Shown: piece by piece, positions 3,210 through 22,503 of the stretch
How the letters are laid out: each line of letters opens with the position of its first letter
Position numbering within the stretch: position 1 is the first letter of the stretch
Origin: a virus
IMG/VR virus record: IMGVR_UViG_3300044799_000334
Location: 1 to 22,503 of that record
Direction: 5' to 3' (one strand)
DNA: 22,503 nucleotides
Translations under genes and position numbers: made by a program
The notes under the pieces: model-generated
Database searches by the model: none
What the model was told of the DNA's origin: nothing
Seen by the model: the letters and a program-made list of their open reading frames with translations, nothing else

Positions 3210-5021
3210 ATGAAGGCTTTATCCATCAATCGCTTGGTCAATGTGTCGGTGAATCTGGCTCCGAAATCTGCACAAATGCAGAATATTTCGACGCTGTTAA
3301 TTCTCGGCTCCTCCAGTGTCATCGACTCTGTTGAACGCTACCGGGAATATACCAGCATCGAAGATGTCACTGCTGACTTCAGTACGACCTCTCCGGAATA
3401 CCTTGCTGCTGTGCTTTGGTTCGAGCAAGCGCCTCAACCTGTGTCATTGCAGATTGGCCTTTGGGCGAAGAACGCCATTGCAGGCGCATTGCGCGGCGCG
3501 ACTCTTTCCGCTGCCCAGCAGTCTATTGCTGCTTGGAACGCTGTGACATCCGGTTCATTTGCTGTAGTCGAAAACGGAACCCCGCTTTCTGTGACCGGCT
3601 TGAACTTCAGCACGGCAACGAACTTGAATGGCGTTGCCTCAACCATCCAAACAGCACTGGCAATTCTGAGTGCTGGTTCGACCGTTGTATGGAATGCCAA
3701 CTATCAACGGTTCGAGTTCACCTCCGGAACAACTGGGGCCACCTCCTCGGTGAATTCCCTCGAATTGCCGACCGCCACTGGCGCATACAGCTTTGCCGGG
3801 CAACTAGCAAACAATGACACTATAACCCTGAATGGCACTGTGGTCACTTTCGTCACCGGAACACCAGTCGGCCCTCAAGTCCAGATCAGCGCGGTTGATC
3901 TTCCCGGTACTCTGGTAAACTTATTGACCTTCTTACAATCGTCCACTGACACACAGCTTGTCAAGTTCAAGTATTTTGTCGTTGGTTCCGCGCTGTACGT
4001 TGAAGCAGTTGCCACAGGGACAGCCGGAAACGCCCTGACAACGGTGAAGTCTGGAACGAACATATCTGTCACTGGCGCAACCTTGGCAGGCGGTTCCGGA
4101 ACCGACATTTCGACAATGCTGGCGGCAACAGCAACTTCTTCCGGTGCTTATGTTGCAGCCGGACTTGCTGCCGAAACGGCGCTGGCGGCGACAACCTTAT
4201 TCGATCAAAACTACGGACAAAACTGGTATGGTCTGGTTATTGCCGGAGCTTCCAATTCTGATCACCTTGCTGTTGCCCCTTACATTGAGGCATCAGCAAG
4301 CAAACACCTGTATGGTGTGACCACAATGGAAGCCGGTGTCCTTTCTTCCGTGAGCTCAACTGACGTTGCTTACTTGTTGAAGCAGCTTGCCTTCAAACGA
4401 ACAGCGGTTCAATTCTCAAGTTCGAATGCCTACGCTGTTTGTTCTTTGTTGGGACGAATTCTGACCACGAACTACAACGGCAACAACACTGTGATCACAT
4501 TGATGTATAAACAAGAACCGGGAATCGTTCCTGAGAACTTGAATGTGACACAGATGTCGGCGCTGGAAGGCAAAAATTGCAACGTCTTCGTCGCTTACAA
4601 CAACAACACGGCAATTGTCGAGCCGGGCATGGTTTCGTCCGGAGAATTTGTTGACACCATCACAGGGACGGATTGGTTGGCACTGGACATCCAGACTTCC
4701 ATCTATAACCTGCTCTATACCACGACAACCAAGATCCCTCAGACCGACGCAGGCAATCACATGCTCGTCACCACAATTGAGGGCGTTTGCTCACAGGGTG
4801 TCACAAATGGATTGCTTGCTCCGGGAACTTGGAACACGGGAGGCTTCGGTGCACTGAATTCCGGTGACTTCTTACCGAAAGGATTCTATGTTTTCGCTCC
4901 GCCGATTGCCTTGCAGAATCCAGCAGACCGTTCGGCGCGCAAGTCTGTTCCAATTCAAGTGGCTGCAAAGCTGGCTGGCGCTATTCATAGCGTCGATGTA
5001 ATCATCAACGTGAACCGCTAA
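3210..5021 (+). CDS. Tail sheath protein, DUF3383 family
   Basis: 603 residues, ribosome-binding site GGGAG. The N-terminus (SINRLVNVSVNLAPKSAQMQ, then a Y-x-S-x-E-x-V-x-x-D segment and SPEYLAAVLWFEQ) and C-terminus (LLTTNYNGNN..., SGEFVDTITGTDWL, IQVAAKLAGAIHSV...) are those of DUF3383 sheath proteins of myophages such as Bcep781-like and PB1-like viruses. The sheath surrounds the tube and contracts to drive injection. About residues 192-297 look like an extra beta domain (NDTITLNGTVVTFVTG, then TAGNALTTVKSGT) inserted into the sheath, which may explain a length above the usual roughly 500. An immediately preceding stretch (115-190) also has a TG-rich beta character. The tube gene follows 10 bases later. 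Confidence 0.92.
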   Translation: MKALSINRLVNVSVNLAPKSAQMQNISTLLILGSSSVIDSVERYREYTSIEDVTADFSTTSPEYLAAVLWFEQAPQPVSLQIGLWAKNAIAGALRGATLSAAQQSIAAWNAVTSGSFAVVENGTPLSVTGLNFSTATNLNGVASTIQTALAILSAGSTVVWNANYQRFEFTSGTTGATSSVNSLELPTATGAYSFAGQLANNDTITLNGTVVTFVTGTPVGPQVQISAVDLPGTLVNLLTFLQSSTDTQLVKFKYFVVGSALYVEAVATGTAGNALTTVKSGTNISVTGATLAGGSGTDISTMLAATATSSGAYVAAGLAAETALAATTLFDQNYGQNWYGLVIAGASNSDHLAVAPYIEASASKHLYGVTTMEAGVLSSVSSTDVAYLLKQLAFKRTAVQFSSSNAYAVCSLLGRILTTNYNGNNTVITLMYKQEPGIVPENLNVTQMSALEGKNCNVFVAYNNNTAIVEPGMVSSGEFVDTITGTDWLALDIQTSIYNLLYTTTTKIPQTDAGNHMLVTTIEGVCSQGVTNGLLAPGTWNTGGFGALNSGDFLPKGFYVFAPPIALQNPADRSARKSVPIQVAAKLAGAIHSVDVIINVNR

Positions 5022-6041: not shown

Positions 6042-7472
6042 ATGTCCGGTGGCTCTGCTGAAATCCTTCAATCTTATTTAGTTTCTGTCGGCTATCAAAC
6101 AGACGCGGTCTCCCTGCGAAAGTTTGAAGATGGTCTGACTGCCGCTGGAAAGAAAGTCCTCAATGTCGGCACAACCGTTGCCGGTGCTGTATTGGCGGTT
6201 GAGGCGGCAACTGCTGCATTCGCATACAACATGCGCAAGGTCTATTTCGAGGCCGAACTAGCACAAACTCCTGTAAAGAACATGAAGGCGCTGGAATATG
6301 CCGGCAAGCAATTTGGCATTTCCAGCGAAACCATGGCCGGTTCCGTTAAGAACATGGCTTCCGCTTTGCGTCTCAATCCCGGACTGACTGAATATCTAAA
6401 AGCATTCGGGGTCAAAGTCGACCCAAACAACATCGGCAAAGCGACAACGGACATGGTTCGTGCGCTCAAAGATATGCCGGAATTTCAGGGTGCACAAATT
6501 GCCCAGATGTTTGGAATGGATGCTGATACTTTTCATTTGTGGAAAGAGCACATTGACGAAATGACTGCCAAGGAAAAAGAATACCTTGAATTACAAAAGA
6601 AGATGGGCATTGACCCTGAAAAGCAGAAAGGTGTTATCTTAGCGTACACCACTGCTCTGGACAAACTGGAAATGCGTTTGTCTTCTGTTGGGCAATTAAT
6701 GCTCGCTAATATGGTTGGCCCTTTTCAGACCGCCGCTCGTTGGTCTGATCATATTTTGGAAGGATGGGGAAGCATTTTCGGAGGTGAACTTGGTGTCAAC
6801 ATCTACAACAAGTTGCACGGCGGTAGTGCCAAAGGCCCATCGTCCTCTGGAAAGATCACAACACCTAACCACGTTTTTCTAGGTGGCCGTTTGCCCGGTG
6901 AGATGACCAACCTCCCTTCAGGCAAAGGTTTAAAGGCGCAGCTGAACGCTATAGAAAGCCGGTACAATCTTCCTCCCGGATTGTTGACAGGAACTTGGGG
7001 CGCTGAATCCTCTTTTGGGAAAAAGATGTTGAGTCCTGCTGGGGCGAAGGGTCACATGGGATTCATGGATGCCACAGCAAAACAATATGGAGTGTCTGAT
7101 CCAAACGACTTAAATCAGTCCGCAACGGGGACTGCAAAAATGTATCAGTATTTGCTGAAGAAATATAAAGGCAACGCACAACACGCCATGTATGCTTACA
7201 ACTGGGGAGAGGGTAATGTTGACTCTTGGTTGAAGACCGGGAAAGGTGTGAATGGCCAACCGATGCCAGCTGAAACAGCAGGCTATCCTTCCAGAGTTGC
7301 TAGCTTCGATTCCCGCCTTGGCGCAGGTGGAGGCGGTGGAGTTCAAATGGCCCAAACCACTAATATCAATGTGAACGGAACTGACGCCGCCTCGACTGCC
7401 AAAATGGTTACGGCATCACAAGATCGAGTCAACGGAAACATGGTTCGTGACATGAAGGTTGCAATGCGATGA
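6042..7472 (+). CDS. Tape measure protein with lytic transglycosylase domain
   Basis: 476 residues, GAGG ribosome-binding site. Residues 1-75 contain the opening FEDGLTAAGKKV and a hydrophobic helix (VGTTVAGAVLAVEAATAAFA). Residues 75-235 are helical, with KALEYAGKQFGISSE and KEKEYLELQKKMGID, typical of tape measures. Residues about 297-400 form a soluble lytic transglycosylase-like domain: AIESRYNLPPGLL, then WGAESSFG with probable catalytic Glu322, AKGHMGFM, and YAYNWGEGNVD. The last 50 residues carry a Gly run and a VNGTDAASTAKMV end. The tape sets tail length and the domain would cut peptidoglycan at entry. It is short for a myophage tape, predicting a short tail. Its TGA overlaps the next ATG. 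Confidence 0.9.
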   Translation: MSGGSAEILQSYLVSVGYQTDAVSLRKFEDGLTAAGKKVLNVGTTVAGAVLAVEAATAAFAYNMRKVYFEAELAQTPVKNMKALEYAGKQFGISSETMAGSVKNMASALRLNPGLTEYLKAFGVKVDPNNIGKATTDMVRALKDMPEFQGAQIAQMFGMDADTFHLWKEHIDEMTAKEKEYLELQKKMGIDPEKQKGVILAYTTALDKLEMRLSSVGQLMLANMVGPFQTAARWSDHILEGWGSIFGGELGVNIYNKLHGGSAKGPSSSGKITTPNHVFLGGRLPGEMTNLPSGKGLKAQLNAIESRYNLPPGLLTGTWGAESSFGKKMLSPAGAKGHMGFMDATAKQYGVSDPNDLNQSATGTAKMYQYLLKKYKGNAQHAMYAYNWGEGNVDSWLKTGKGVNGQPMPAETAGYPSRVASFDSRLGAGGGGGVQMAQTTNINVNGTDAASTAKMVTASQDRVNGNMVRDMKVAMR

Positions 7473-17986: not shown

Positions 17987-18067
17987 TTCCCGCTGTACTT
18001 TTTGAAGAGAGAAAGCAAGTTCCCCAATTCTTTTGCTCTCTTCTTTAATTAACCATCCAATGATTAA

Positions 18068-18096
18068 ATTATAGTCGAGTTAATCTAAAGAGTCAC
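18068..18096 (-). promoter_or_regulatory. Candidate sigma70-type promoter for the small-gene operon
   Basis: On the minus strand a perfect TATAAT (18073-18068) is preceded by GTGACT (18096-18091; four of six match the -35 consensus) with a 17-base spacer, the optimal distance. Transcription would start near 18060, giving a leader of about 75 bases before the ATG at 17986. It overlaps the 3' end of the polymerase gene. Inferred from sequence only; no data on use. Confidence 0.42.
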
Positions 18097-20149
18097 CAGT
18101 GTTTTCGATTATTTCTGAATTATTTTCGACCTTAGTGTGACCAATTTGAATTAGAATTTTAGCAGCGGAATCTACATACCAATCATGGTCAACGTCCTCG
18201 GGAAAGCTCTCCGGCAAATCCATCAAAGGTTTTGCACCTTCGGTCAATGCCACTTTGTTCCCGGTCTTGGCATAGATGATTTCACCCTGTTCCCCTTTTG
18301 AATAATACCATCGAATTAATTTTCCAAGGTATATACCGCTCGAAACAGGTTTCCCCACTTCCACAGGATCACCTTTCACAGCTCCGCCGCTAACGTGGCG
18401 CATACTGGTAAACTTGGTGATGTCCCGGCATTCTTCAATTGTTGCCCGGAGTGGTTTACCTGTGGCAATAAATTCCTTAACAGCTTCGACACATATTTCA
18501 TTCACCGCATTCTTCTTGGGTGAAGTCTTACCGTAAGCGCCCTTTGTTTTGAAAATTTGTCCTTTTTGCGGTTCTTCGTAGACTGCCAAGTAATTATTGA
18601 TGTCCCGGCTGTATGTTGCCTTGTATCTGATTTCTTCCGTTCCAAAGCCAGTTTGTTTTTCCCATTGTTGGACGATAGCTTTAAATTCTGCTTCTTTACT
18701 TCGATGACAACGAACCACAATGCCGTCAGTATTTACGGAGATGACTTCAATATCCCTAAGCTCAAAAGATTCCGCCAACATAAGAATGGATAGTTGCCCG
18801 GTGATAGTCACTTGCAACATAAGATTAGGAGCGTAAACAATACTCCACATGCTACCAAGTTTGCCGAAAGTTCCGTTTGCCACAATTTTGAGACATTCCG
18901 CTACTACAATATTGCCGGCTTGTTTCGCACTGATCCGTTCAACTACAATCCCATCATAAACCAACAGGAAGTCCCGGCCTAGATTTTCTGGAGCAATCCC
19001 AGCATTTAGAATTAGTCTAGGATAATAGGAGGTGGCATCTGTATCGGCAATGAAATAATTTTCATCCGCTGTATGGGCGATACATTTTTCCTGACTGTGC
19101 AGGCCGCCGATGCCAATTTTATATTTAGCTTTCCCCATTTCAATCATCAACCCTTTTAATTCTTCGGGCATAATGATTGATCCATCCCCATAGCCGACTT
19201 CAAAGTCGGCATTTTGAACAATGCCGAGAATATGATTCATTAATGGGGTTTGAAATTTAATGAATGCTGGTGTCTTGTACTTATATCTTGTGCCGGCAGG
19301 AATGACGGTTTTCTTGAGATACTTCTGCCCCGTAGTACGTTTGATTTCACTATTAATGATGGCCTCGGCCATCTGGGCATCTGAAAGAGAACGGAGGTCT
19401 AGGCCGTAGCGAATCCCCATCTTTTCACGTAATTCAATTTGCTTGATTGTGGCATTATAAAGAATGCCAGTATTGTCCAGATCATTGATACAATAACGAC
19501 GCAGAATTAAGATTTGATTTTCTGTGAGGACAGTCCCCGGCTTAAAAGGTAAATCTTGGAGCCGAGGAGCATGGAGACGCCCGGCACAGACTTTTAATCC
19601 CGGCCCCAATGCCGTCAGTTCAATTAAGTCAATTTGATTGATGTTTAACAGTCTCTTGACTTTGAACCGCTTGTAGACATCTTTGCCCTGTTGCTTTTCC
19701 ACAATGAGCATACAAGTTGCTTCCCACATGGCGGCGGAAGCATGCCCACCGACTGCCACCGCGGTCACTGGGAAATCGTATCTCAGGCCGTTGAAATTGA
19801 CAAGGCAGAAATTATGTAGAACCCAATTGAGCTTCGGGATATTAAAAAGATCCCATCTGGGGCCAAAGTCATCTGCTTCAAAATAGATCACCTTTCCCGA
19901 TACTGTTGACTTGAATGCAAATAAGCAATAGTTCGGATAAACTTCAATATCAAAGAGTAGTTTTTCACCGGCTTGAGAAGCCTGCAATAATTCTTGATCT
20001 GTAAAAAGATTGGGGACGAAATTACGGGCATCTTCAAGACCCGGTAGATAATCTGGGGATTCCCAGAAACGAAGTGGTGGAATGGCTTTCGGTTTTTCTT
20101 TTTTTGGAGGCTTTGGAGGCGGCGTGTCGTTCCAAAAAAATCCAACCAT
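18080..20149 (-). CDS. Family-B-type DNA polymerase with 3'-5' exonuclease
   Basis: 689 residues from the ATG at 20149, 17 bases after the clamp gene stop. A TTG at 20221 would add 24 residues but has no ribosome-binding site and lies in the clamp gene. Exonuclease motifs are complete: LLFDIEVYP (Asp67, Glu69), NFNGLRYDF (Asp125) and RRYCINDLD (Tyr219, Asp223). Polymerase motif A is DTDATSYYP (catalytic Asp371), motif B is KIVANGTFG (Lys421-Gly429) and motif C is SVNTDGIVV (Asp475). The first Asp of the usual DTD is Asn. Only about 50 residues separate motifs A and B, so the fingers region is compact. The N-terminus has a Pro/Lys-rich stretch. It is probably the replicative polymerase, used with the adjacent clamp. 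Confidence 0.85.
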   Translation of the reverse strand: MVGFFWNDTPPPKPPKKEKPKAIPPLRFWESPDYLPGLEDARNFVPNLFTDQELLQASQAGEKLLFDIEVYPNYCLFAFKSTVSGKVIYFEADDFGPRWDLFNIPKLNWVLHNFCLVNFNGLRYDFPVTAVAVGGHASAAMWEATCMLIVEKQQGKDVYKRFKVKRLLNINQIDLIELTALGPGLKVCAGRLHAPRLQDLPFKPGTVLTENQILILRRYCINDLDNTGILYNATIKQIELREKMGIRYGLDLRSLSDAQMAEAIINSEIKRTTGQKYLKKTVIPAGTRYKYKTPAFIKFQTPLMNHILGIVQNADFEVGYGDGSIIMPEELKGLMIEMGKAKYKIGIGGLHSQEKCIAHTADENYFIADTDATSYYPRLILNAGIAPENLGRDFLLVYDGIVVERISAKQAGNIVVAECLKIVANGTFGKLGSMWSIVYAPNLMLQVTITGQLSILMLAESFELRDIEVISVNTDGIVVRCHRSKEAEFKAIVQQWEKQTGFGTEEIRYKATYSRDINNYLAVYEEPQKGQIFKTKGAYGKTSPKKNAVNEICVEAVKEFIATGKPLRATIEECRDITKFTSMRHVSGGAVKGDPVEVGKPVSSGIYLGKLIRWYYSKGEQGEIIYAKTGNKVALTEGAKPLMDLPESFPEDVDHDWYVDSAAKILIQIGHTKVENNSEIIENTGDSLD

Positions 20150-20166
20150 GTCCGCTCTAGCCAAAG

Positions 20167-21117
20167 CTAATCCCTCATCCCGATAATTGCCCCTCTGATC
20201 CCATCGCCATGAAAAAGGCAAGGTGCAGGGTAAGTTGAAAAATCTATTGTCTTGGCAACAGGTTTTAACAATTGGAGCTGTTCAAAGTTAAAACAGCCAG
20301 TCGTCTGCAATTCAGGAAGCTCGAAGGAGGCTCCTTCACCCTCGATTTGCCCTGTGGCAATGTTGCCCGGGCGAAGAAATAGCCGCCCGGATTCTCCCAC
20401 AAACGGTTTCAGTTCGAGAGCAGCATCCCATAGACCTTCGGGGATAGGTACGGGATTGCTGTTCTGATCTAATATTCTGGTCAACTCCGGCCAATCTGTT
20501 GAATAGGTTTGGGTGCGCAGCCAGCGATCCCCAGTGAAATGAAATGTGGCACTGGTTTCGGACATCTGCAATTTAATCGGTTCTTCTCCAATCCTAAGCA
20601 GCTCAAGTACAGCGGCTCGAGGAATGTTGAGTGTGACTGGAAAAATGTAACCAAGCCAATGTTCTGCCAGTATGACATTATTAGTTGCAAAAGCAGATTG
20701 CCCGCGAAGTAGAATTCCTCTTGCCCATGGTCGGGAAGCATCTTCTGCTATCAAAGGAGCCAGTTTTTTCAAGACTTTTAATAGGCTTCCATCAAGAATA
20801 ATCTCTTTCCCTTCTGGTGTAACTTCCGGGAATTTGTCCACAATGCAATCAATGAAGGCTTTAAACTTCCCTGACTTGACAGCGAGCTTGCCGGCAGGTG
20901 TCACATGAAGTTGAATAGTTTCCTTGCATGTTTGAATGGCCTTGATGAATGGAATAGCGTTTGGGGTGACATCGAGGTTGAGATCGATTGGGCAACAGAG
21001 GCCAAGCATCCCATTGTATCCACGGATTGTTCCACCTTGGATGTGGAAGTGTTGAAGTTCGGGGATTAGATCCTTTTTGGCGACAGAGCCTTGGACAAAT
21101 CTTAATGTGTCTAACAT
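20167..21117 (-). CDS. DnaN-like sliding clamp (DNA polymerase beta clamp fold)
   Basis: 316 residues. The start ATG overlaps the upstream stop as TAATG, with AAGAGG upstream. Several segments recall beta-clamp repeats: KLAVKSGKFKAFIDCI near residue 85, RPWARGILLRGQSAFATNNVILAEHW at about 130-155 (equivalent to the 'R-x-x-L-x-G-I-L-F...A-T-D' strand pair), LELLRIGEEPIKLQMS, and a C-terminus GIRGAIIGMRD like the clamp's VVMPMR end. The order and length fit a divergent clamp encoded by a phage. It would tether the polymerase encoded just downstream. No clamp loader is in the window. A structural check would settle the fold. Confidence 0.7.
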   Translation of the reverse strand: MLDTLRFVQGSVAKKDLIPELQHFHIQGGTIRGYNGMLGLCCPIDLNLDVTPNAIPFIKAIQTCKETIQLHVTPAGKLAVKSGKFKAFIDCIVDKFPEVTPEGKEIILDGSLLKVLKKLAPLIAEDASRPWARGILLRGQSAFATNNVILAEHWLGYIFPVTLNIPRAAVLELLRIGEEPIKLQMSETSATFHFTGDRWLRTQTYSTDWPELTRILDQNSNPVPIPEGLWDAALELKPFVGESGRLFLRPGNIATGQIEGEGASFELPELQTTGCFNFEQLQLLKPVAKTIDFSTYPAPCLFHGDGIRGAIIGMRD

Positions 21118-22046
21118 TAAAATAATACCTCTTGATCTATAAGATAACGTGGATCACCATTCTTATCTTTGGTGATTTGCTTGCCCAACTGGTCAAACGC
21201 CCAAATACAATAGCACCAGCGGGAGACGTAGGTTTCCTGCATTCGTTCTGTATCAACACCACAAGCTGTCAGCTTTGCCAGTACAGCCTCTTTCAATGGT
21301 TCCGTCAAAGTGGTCAAGTGTTGTCCTTCAACTCGACGGCTTGGGCTTTGATTGGAAACATTAATCACTCGAGCTTCCGGAAGTAACAACATACCACCAA
21401 CCCGGGCAATCTGCACCCAAGATGATGAATCCACAGAATACCAAGGATAACGAGTCATTAAAGCTGGCGTTGTCAAGCCGAAACCGTGAACCTTGATTTT
21501 AGGACGACCGGAACCATCCGTCAAGTATTTCCCCCAAATACGATCAAGCCACAAGTAGAGTTGAGGTGTTGAAATTGGAACCATACCGCCGAGGGTTATG
21601 TAGTCATAGTTAGCAATGTAGAATTCCAGATACCGTTCATCCTCCCCGTAGTGAAAACAGGGCAAGGGGCGAACACCCATTGACTCCATTGCCAACTGAT
21701 TCTGATAGGTTTTTAAGGGATCACCAATGCCGTCCAACACAGAGGCCAGAATGGTTCCGTCTACCTTTTCGATTATATCTTCATTACGAAGAATATAATC
21801 ACAGTATCCCCGCATGTCGATTTCGACACCTTTGGTGAAGGCAGAAAATGCCCCGGAGTCGAGAAAGATTTTCCGGCCTTCATTGCGGATAGAATCAACA
21901 AACAGTTGCCTGTGGATATAGTGGTACGACTCGAGCAGGTAAGTTGCACTGGCACGTTGATACTGTTCGTTTTCAGTTAGGCGGTTCCAAATTGAACCGC
22001 CTATTTTGAAGCCATTGCTGAAAATGGTGGCAAGGTAGAGCTTCAT
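21117..22046 (-). CDS. TGT/DpdA-like TIM-barrel protein, possible 7-deazaguanine transferase
   Basis: 309 residues. Motifs in order: FLDSGAFSAF (Asp63, equivalent to the DSGG base-handling site of tRNA-guanine transglycosylases), SVLDGIGDP (Asp105), CFHYGEDERYL, YITLGGMVP (LGG 152-154), VHGFGLT (187-191), WYSVDSSSW (Asp206, possible nucleophile) and a C-terminal SRWCYCIWAF with one CxC. This spacing resembles phage DpdA-type proteins, which exchange guanine for a 7-deazaguanine in DNA. No queuosine-type synthesis genes are in the window. Start ATG 22046 has no clear ribosome-binding site and lies 10 bases after the previous gene. Family call is by motif; substrate unproven. Confidence 0.62.
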   Translation of the reverse strand: MKLYLATIFSNGFKIGGSIWNRLTENEQYQRASATYLLESYHYIHRQLFVDSIRNEGRKIFLDSGAFSAFTKGVEIDMRGYCDYILRNEDIIEKVDGTILASVLDGIGDPLKTYQNQLAMESMGVRPLPCFHYGEDERYLEFYIANYDYITLGGMVPISTPQLYLWLDRIWGKYLTDGSGRPKIKVHGFGLTTPALMTRYPWYSVDSSSWVQIARVGGMLLLPEARVINVSNQSPSRRVEGQHLTTLTEPLKEAVLAKLTACGVDTERMQETYVSRWCYCIWAFDQLGKQITKDKNGDPRYLIDQEVLF

Positions 22047-22056
22047 GGATTTAGAT

Positions 22057-22503
22057 TTAAAGCTCTACCCAAAAACCACTGACAAGATTGATAGGCTTCA
22101 CCTTGCTGATGACACGTGCTGACAGGTTCCAATTTGCAAGGGGCACCCACACACCGGCGAAAATTCCAAATCCGTCGCCCGCCTTGATGCTGTTGCCCGC
22201 TTTGATGCTGTTGCCTGCTTCGATGCCGCTGCCCGCTTCGATGCCCCAGCCCGCTTCGATGCCGCTGCCCGCTTCGATGCCCCAGCCCGCTTCGATGCCG
22301 CTGCCCGCTTCGATGCCCCAGCCTGCTTTGATGCTGTTGCCCGCTTTGATGCCCCAGCCTGCCTTGATGCTGTTGCCCGCTTTGATGCTGTTGCCTGCTT
22401 CGATGCCGCTGCCCGCTTCGATGCCCCAGCCCGCTTTGATGCCGTTGCCCGCTTTGATGCCCCAGCCCGCTTCGATGCCGCTGCCCGCTTCGATGCCCCA
22501 GCC
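22057..22503 (-). CDS. Hexapeptide-repeat protein, 5' end outside window
   Basis: An open frame runs from the right edge to a TAA at 22057-22059; 148 residues are visible and no start is in the window. The first 109 residues are 18 tandem hexapeptides of the form W/S/N-G/S-I-E/K-A-G after one Gly. A C-terminal domain of about 39 residues follows: DGFGIFAGVWVPLANWNLSAR, then KPINLVSGFWVEL. I know comparable repeats (GWGIKAG, NSIKAG) from scattered phage and bacterial proteins without an assigned function. The fixed spacing of Ile and Gly suggests a beta-solenoid. It precedes the TGT-like gene by 10 bases and is probably co-transcribed with it. Confidence 0.8.
   Translation of the reverse strand, partial: GWGIEAGSGIEAGWGIKAGNGIKAGWGIEAGSGIEAGNSIKAGNSIKAGWGIKAGNSIKAGWGIEAGSGIEAGWGIEAGSGIEAGWGIEAGSGIEAGNSIKAGNSIKAGDGFGIFAGVWVPLANWNLSARVISKVKPINLVSGFWVEL
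22177..22500 (-). repeat. 18 tandem 18-bp units encoding hexapeptides
   Basis: Eighteen contiguous units of 18 bases, without spacers, fill this stretch and may continue right of the window. Units fall into related types: W-G-I-E, S-G-I-E, N-S-I-K, W-G-I-K and N-G-I-K, each followed by A-G. Units 1-4 and 11-14, counted from the low-coordinate end, are the same series with one base difference, showing block duplication. Substitutions are concentrated at three codons (first, second and fourth of each unit), so the frame is conserved. Confidence 0.95.

Follow-up and report, generated by a model that had tools for sequence, protein, structure and literature searches.

A predicted phage DpdA in the replication operon of an uncultured myophage, with preQ0 genes on its probable continuation

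Our analysis points to a phage DNA 7-deazaguanine transglycosylase, DpdA, that inserts preQ0 made by the phage's own enzymes into phage DNA and thereby protects it from restriction, a reading to which we assign a probability of about 0.9. According to this model FolE, QueD, QueE and QueC would turn GTP into preQ0 (7-cyano-7-deazaguanine), and DpdA would cut the N-glycosidic bond of a guanine in DNA and put preQ0 in its place, probably by way of a covalent intermediate on Asp206, with Asp63 serving as general acid/base. The dpdA gene is predicted to be co-transcribed with those for the sliding clamp and the polymerase, so that modification would be timed with replication, and the resulting dPreQ0 would shield the phage DNA from host restriction. 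Sequence supports the family, the fold, the operon and the presence of preQ0 genes both in relatives and in the probable continuation, whereas activity on DNA, the dPreQ0 product and restriction resistance would carry over from characterised phages. Phage CAjan loses its dPreQ0 when dpdA is deleted, and its modified DNA is protected against restriction (PMC6884629).

The window, by which we mean the whole stretch of 22,503 bases analysed, is identical in extent to its source record, and the features discussed here are collected in the table. The earlier note had placed the enzyme gene just upstream of clamp and polymerase genes, and searches against PHROG families agree. The dpdA stop codon and the clamp start codon overlap in the sequence TAATG, by which the clamp is translationally coupled to dpdA, and the polymerase is 42% identical to its BcepGomr counterpart, which is annotated PolB. 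The order dpdA, clamp, polymerase recurs in 9g, CAjan (with a small ORF in between), JenP1, PSASB_03 and Stenotrophomonas relatives of the last, and in all of these folE, queD, queC and queE lie just upstream of dpdA.

Features of the window discussed in the text
Feature	Position	Strand	Remarks
dpdA, predicted DNA 7-deazaguanine transglycosylase	21117..22046	-	309 aa, ATG start
DNA polymerase sliding clamp (processivity factor)	20167..21117	-	PHROG 947, E = 8.7e-67
Family-B-type DNA polymerase	18080..20221	-	third gene of the operon; PHROG 1252, E = 5e-189
Promoter-like 56-bp element, GTGACT-N17-TATAAT	18040..18095	-	overlaps the 3' end of the polymerase gene
Glycine-rich hexapeptide-repeat ORF, (G-x-G-I-x-A)n, 3' part	22057..22503	-	directly upstream of dpdA; runs off the contig
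Tandem repeat, period 18/36 bp	22177..22503		contig ends in it; 215 bp identical to the start of L062
Contractile tail sheath, DUF3383-type	3210..5021	+	603 aa

The earlier note saw no biosynthesis genes in the window, and our search of the 22,503-base record for GTP cyclohydrolase (folE) likewise found none. This apparent lack is, on the sequence evidence, very probably due to assembly having broken off within a repeat. When IMG/VR was scanned with the repeat unit, one further contig came up, IMGVR_UViG_3300044798_000627 (here L062; 13,485 bases), whose start lies within the repeat; an exact search with the unique sequence flanking the repeat gave no other hit. The N-terminal part of the hexapeptide-repeat ORF lies at L062:388-655, within a repeat ORF region spanning L062:2-655, and weakly resembles a protein annotated "putative collagen-like protein" in Edwardsiella phage GF-2, and also one of a faecal phage; the ORF was absent next to dpdA in the 40 IMG/VR relatives. 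The possibility that it extends FolE as a fusion was considered and dismissed, because in L062 it forms an ORF of its own that starts at 655 and has a promoter-like site. That site, at L062:681-736, is identical to the 56-bp element of the window; it reads TTGACT-N17-TATAAT and precedes the repeat ORF leading into dpdA, and no comparable copy occurs in any other locus fetched. By tetranucleotide profile L062 was the closest to the window among 65 loci, with a small lead (0.548 versus 0.525). The ends of the two contigs show no perfect overlap, the best being 98.2% over 166 bp. From the shared 215-bp repeat, the shared element, the tetranucleotide profile and the gene order, we infer that window and L062 very probably represent one phage population. 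The opposite end of the window, at 12-69, carries a 21-bp tandem repeat of 2.8 copies that are 100% identical.

Outward from the repeat, on the same strand as dpdA, L062 carries the N-terminal part of the repeat ORF followed by folE (Pfam GTP_cyclohydroI, 3e-48), queD (PTPS, 2e-23), queC (6.2e-50, above the NCBIfam QueC cut-off) and queE (radical SAM; PHROG QueE-like, 5e-52), with further genes beyond, including those for a helicase and a Cas4-type exonuclease. This gene order is that of the IMG/VR relatives: folE lies upstream of dpdA in all 40 loci, and queD, queC and queE accompany it in 39, the exception being L022, in which the contig DNA begins shortly before folE. The earlier note had named two possible sources of the precursor, the rest of the genome and the host. 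The evidence favours the former: preQ0 is very probably made by the phage's own genes, on the probable continuation L062.

The base to be expected in this phage's DNA is likely dPreQ0, judging by analogy. The Gat half of a Gat-QueC fusion is absent from L062 and from the QueC of the 39 relatives in which QueC was seen. A search for a separate QueF gave profile matches in seven to nine relatives, all within the FolE ORF, and we rejected these as reflecting the related fold. In CAjan and Rosebush, whose gene set is the same, dPreQ0 amounts to about 30% of G (PMC6884629). We consider it unlikely that an active DpdA here leads to a different final base (dADG, dG+ or dPreQ1) through an extra enzyme encoded in the unseen part of the genome. 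Room for such an enzyme exists, since window and L062 together make up about 36 kb, against 55-57 kb in the myophage relatives, so that genes are missing, and 9g (dG+) and several other phages do go beyond preQ0 (PMC6884629); the lack of a Gat half, the confinement of the QueF matches to FolE and the dPreQ0 of CAjan and Rosebush all argue against it. It is highly improbable that dpdA draws on host preQ0, as the "singleton" DpdA phages would, and that L062 comes from another phage. Window and L062 are separate contigs, connected solely by repeat sequence and the shared element, and related phages could share an identical repeat. However, the repeat is accompanied by a distant element that the other loci lack, the tetranucleotide profile and gene order of L062 point the same way, and the nearest relatives of the window DpdA all have the pathway; the 76 singleton dpdA phages on record (PMC6884629) are not among its close relatives.

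The assignment of the enzyme itself, which the earlier note had described as DpdA/TGT-like, withstood similarity searches, fold comparison and inspection of gene context. The product of dpdA matches PHROG 887 (E = 2.5e-75), a phage family annotated "queuine tRNA-ribosyltransferase", and over its full length is 50% identical to DpdA of 9g and 49% to that of CAjan, two phages with measured DNA modification; it shows 63% identity to that of PSASB_03. Relatives are encoded in 230 GenBank phage records, 152 of which cover at least 80% of the protein, and at 40 IMG/VR loci (43-78% identity). A Pfam search found no family, TGT included, up to E = 1. Models for bacterial DpdA matched only weakly, that of the dpd defence island (NF041059) scoring 17.1 bits, far short of its curated cut-off of 200; such low scores would be expected for the phage subgroup, though they do not amount to positive support. 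All four motifs whose order had first suggested the assignment are present in the ORF: LDSGAFSAF at residue 62, LGGM at 152, HGFG at 187 and SVDSSSW at 204, with D63, H187 and D206 invariant in an alignment of 39 sequences. H187 of the HGFG motif aligns with His196 of 9g, whose protein has nine extra N-terminal residues, and a lack of this histidine distinguishes DpdA2, which forms a family of its own (Hutinet et al. 2019, PMC6884629). In bacterial and archaeal genomes, a search for DpdA returned five contigs, all in MAGs, and so names no host. Two of them, Anaerolinea MAG contigs that are probably phage contigs in the bin, carry the same DpdA module (L066 and L067), and L066 also has a Gat half beside QueC.

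Comparison of folds was needed because sequence and profile searches of the PDB fell short: the single DpdA sequence found no TGT among PDB sequences, and a profile of 39 relatives gave only a weak match to a bacterial DNA-guanine transglycosylase (7ui4, E = 1.4). An AlphaFold2 model of the window DpdA, built with its relatives, reached a mean pLDDT of 94.1 and a pTM of 0.91. TGTs account for 33 of its 35 top PDB fold matches and for 38 of the 41 below E = 0.001; the first is archaeal TGT (ArcTGT; E = 3.7e-7, probability 1.00), and the best TGT matches have TM-scores of about 0.5. The comparison with TGT that the earlier note had proposed came out in its favour, the best structural matches being TGTs and not another TIM-barrel family. 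Among predicted viral structures the model matched phage proteins that were mostly called "queuine tRNA-ribosyltransferase" or carried no name. The catalytic pair of E. coli TGT, which we take to be D89 and D264, would correspond to Asp63 (LDSGAFSAF) and Asp206 (SVDSSSW) as the predicted catalytic residues of the phage enzyme. An hhalign comparison with E. coli TGT aligned the DSG motif with Asp63, at low probability, and did not place the second aspartate; since this alignment covers only the DSG motif, the assignment of Asp206 rests on motif order. The window DpdA has no CxCxxC as in the zinc site of TGT (CxCxxC ... H): Cys278 and Cys280 are unconserved, and Cys130 is the sole invariant cysteine of the family. 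Given the identity to the 9g and CAjan enzymes, His187, the fold and the missing zinc cysteines, the product is, by sequence and predicted structure, a phage DpdA rather than a TGT for tRNA, a DpdA of the bacterial type or a member of DpdA2. A role as tRNA-guanine transglycosylase on tRNA of the host or the phage, which the fold and the usual GenBank and PHROG annotations would suggest, is scarcely credible for a protein that groups with the DpdAs of full-pathway phages, in which the base is in DNA and depends on dpdA (PMC6884629), that lacks the zinc site of the E. coli enzyme and whose gene sits in a replication operon.

The FolE of L062 (340 aa) carries a 115-aa domain before the cyclohydrolase (L062:1511-1855, minus strand) that resembles the phosphoribosyltransferase Gpt. 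The domain occurs in 22 of the 40 IMG/VR loci and each time continues in frame into FolE; the loci noted for it are L001, L002, L005-L010, L013-L016, L021, L026, L028-L031, L033, L035, L038, L039, L041 and L044. Among GenBank phages 33 records match it, and the annotated matches all fall in GTP cyclohydrolase genes, a few records being unannotated. The phages concerned are all in the list of DpdA relatives except Sphingomonas phage MMDA13, in which DpdA adjoins it, so that the domain appears, as far as seen, to be restricted to DpdA phages. Its profile matched xanthine(-guanine) phosphoribosyltransferases in the PDB (2.7e-6) and aligned with E. coli Gpt by hhalign (96.3%, 1.5e-9), and its model (pLDDT 95.7) had the XGPRTs of E. 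coli and Yersinia as best fold matches (1.2e-5). The positions that we take to be the PRPP-binding DD..DSG.T, the catalytic Asp and the base-stacking Trp of Gpt are invariant in an alignment of 23 sequences, and that of Gpt Lys115 is K or R in 22 of them. About 25 residues of Gpt, including the flexible loop, are missing from the domain in the hhalign alignment, and the pyrophosphate-loop Arg, present in 22 of the 23 sequences, is Cys in L062. In one relative, G002, the FolE ORF (L006:7383-9122) has an insertion before the C-E-H-H zinc motif that looks intein-like, beginning CVIGSTFVETPKG and ending VHN-C.

In a large set of DpdA phages, this one very probably among them, FolE carries the Gpt-like domain, and we tentatively propose, from sequence and model, that the domain captures the guanine freed by DpdA and converts it to GMP. 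If true, a product competing with preQ0 would be removed, GTP would be fed to the attached FolE and modification would become a guanine-recycling cycle. At the dPreQ0 level of CAjan, 70,628 per 10^6 nucleotides (PMC6884629), base exchange in a 60-kb genome would by our estimate set free about 8,400 guanines, which for 100 genome copies per cell and an assumed volume of 1 fL is of the order of 1 mM. Because most of the flexible-loop segment is missing and L062 has Cys in place of the pyrophosphate-loop Arg, the domain may instead have a ligand-binding or regulatory function. A phosphoribosyltransferase is not mentioned in any of the open-access papers searched that name DpdA and FolE, and the fusion raises the question of the fate of the guanine that base exchange releases.

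The contractile tail sheath gene identifies the window phage as a myophage. The best homologues of this sheath are shorter, at about 490 residues, and align with it in two pieces, which suggests an inserted domain of about 110 residues. At 6042-7472 the window encodes a probable tape measure protein, in whose translation a stretch resembling lytic transglycosylases (LTGTWGAESSFGKK...) was picked out by eye. The analysis documents, for a group of uncultured myophages, the dpdA, preQ0 and replication module that is familiar above all from siphophages, and it confirms the call of a DNA hypermodification enzyme made from sequence alone. The presence of the module in myophages is not a new principle, since the viruses in which Hutinet et al. 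recorded one or more pathway genes included 23 Myoviridae (PMC6884629).

Among known systems, the Escherichia phage CAjan (Seuratvirus, Queuovirinae; NC_028776) has the same order of folE, dpdA, clamp and polymerase, with queD, queC and queE upstream as in L062 and the relatives, and likewise a QueC without Gat; dPreQ0 has been measured in its DNA (PMC6884629). It differs in being a siphophage, in the small ORF between its dpdA and clamp genes and in a FolE that, unlike that of L062, has no Gpt-like domain. Enterobacteria phage 9g (Nonagvirus; KJ419279) is as close in DpdA and operon order, but it has its own Gat-QueC and makes dG+, whereas no Gat-QueC was seen in L062 or the relatives. The closest isolates are Pseudomonas phage PSASB_03 and the group of Stenotrophomonas phage ply2008005c, with DpdA at 63-64% and clamp at 60-61% identity, FolE-QueD-QueC-QueE directly upstream and a FolE with the Gpt-like domain. 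Their tail genes are different, PSASB_03 having no match to the window sheath, and their polymerases match that of the window weakly or not at all. Four uncultured phages, G002, G003, G006 and G025 (L006, L007, L010 and L035; 43-57 kb), are real kin of the window phage: they share its sheath at 47-69% and, like window and L062, have dpdA with the whole preQ0 pathway, but lack the hexapeptide-repeat ORF next to dpdA. TGT, finally, has the predicted fold and the DSG motif in common with the window DpdA and differs from it in the zinc-binding cysteine motif, which the phage protein lacks, and in an identity of about 10-14% in structural alignments.
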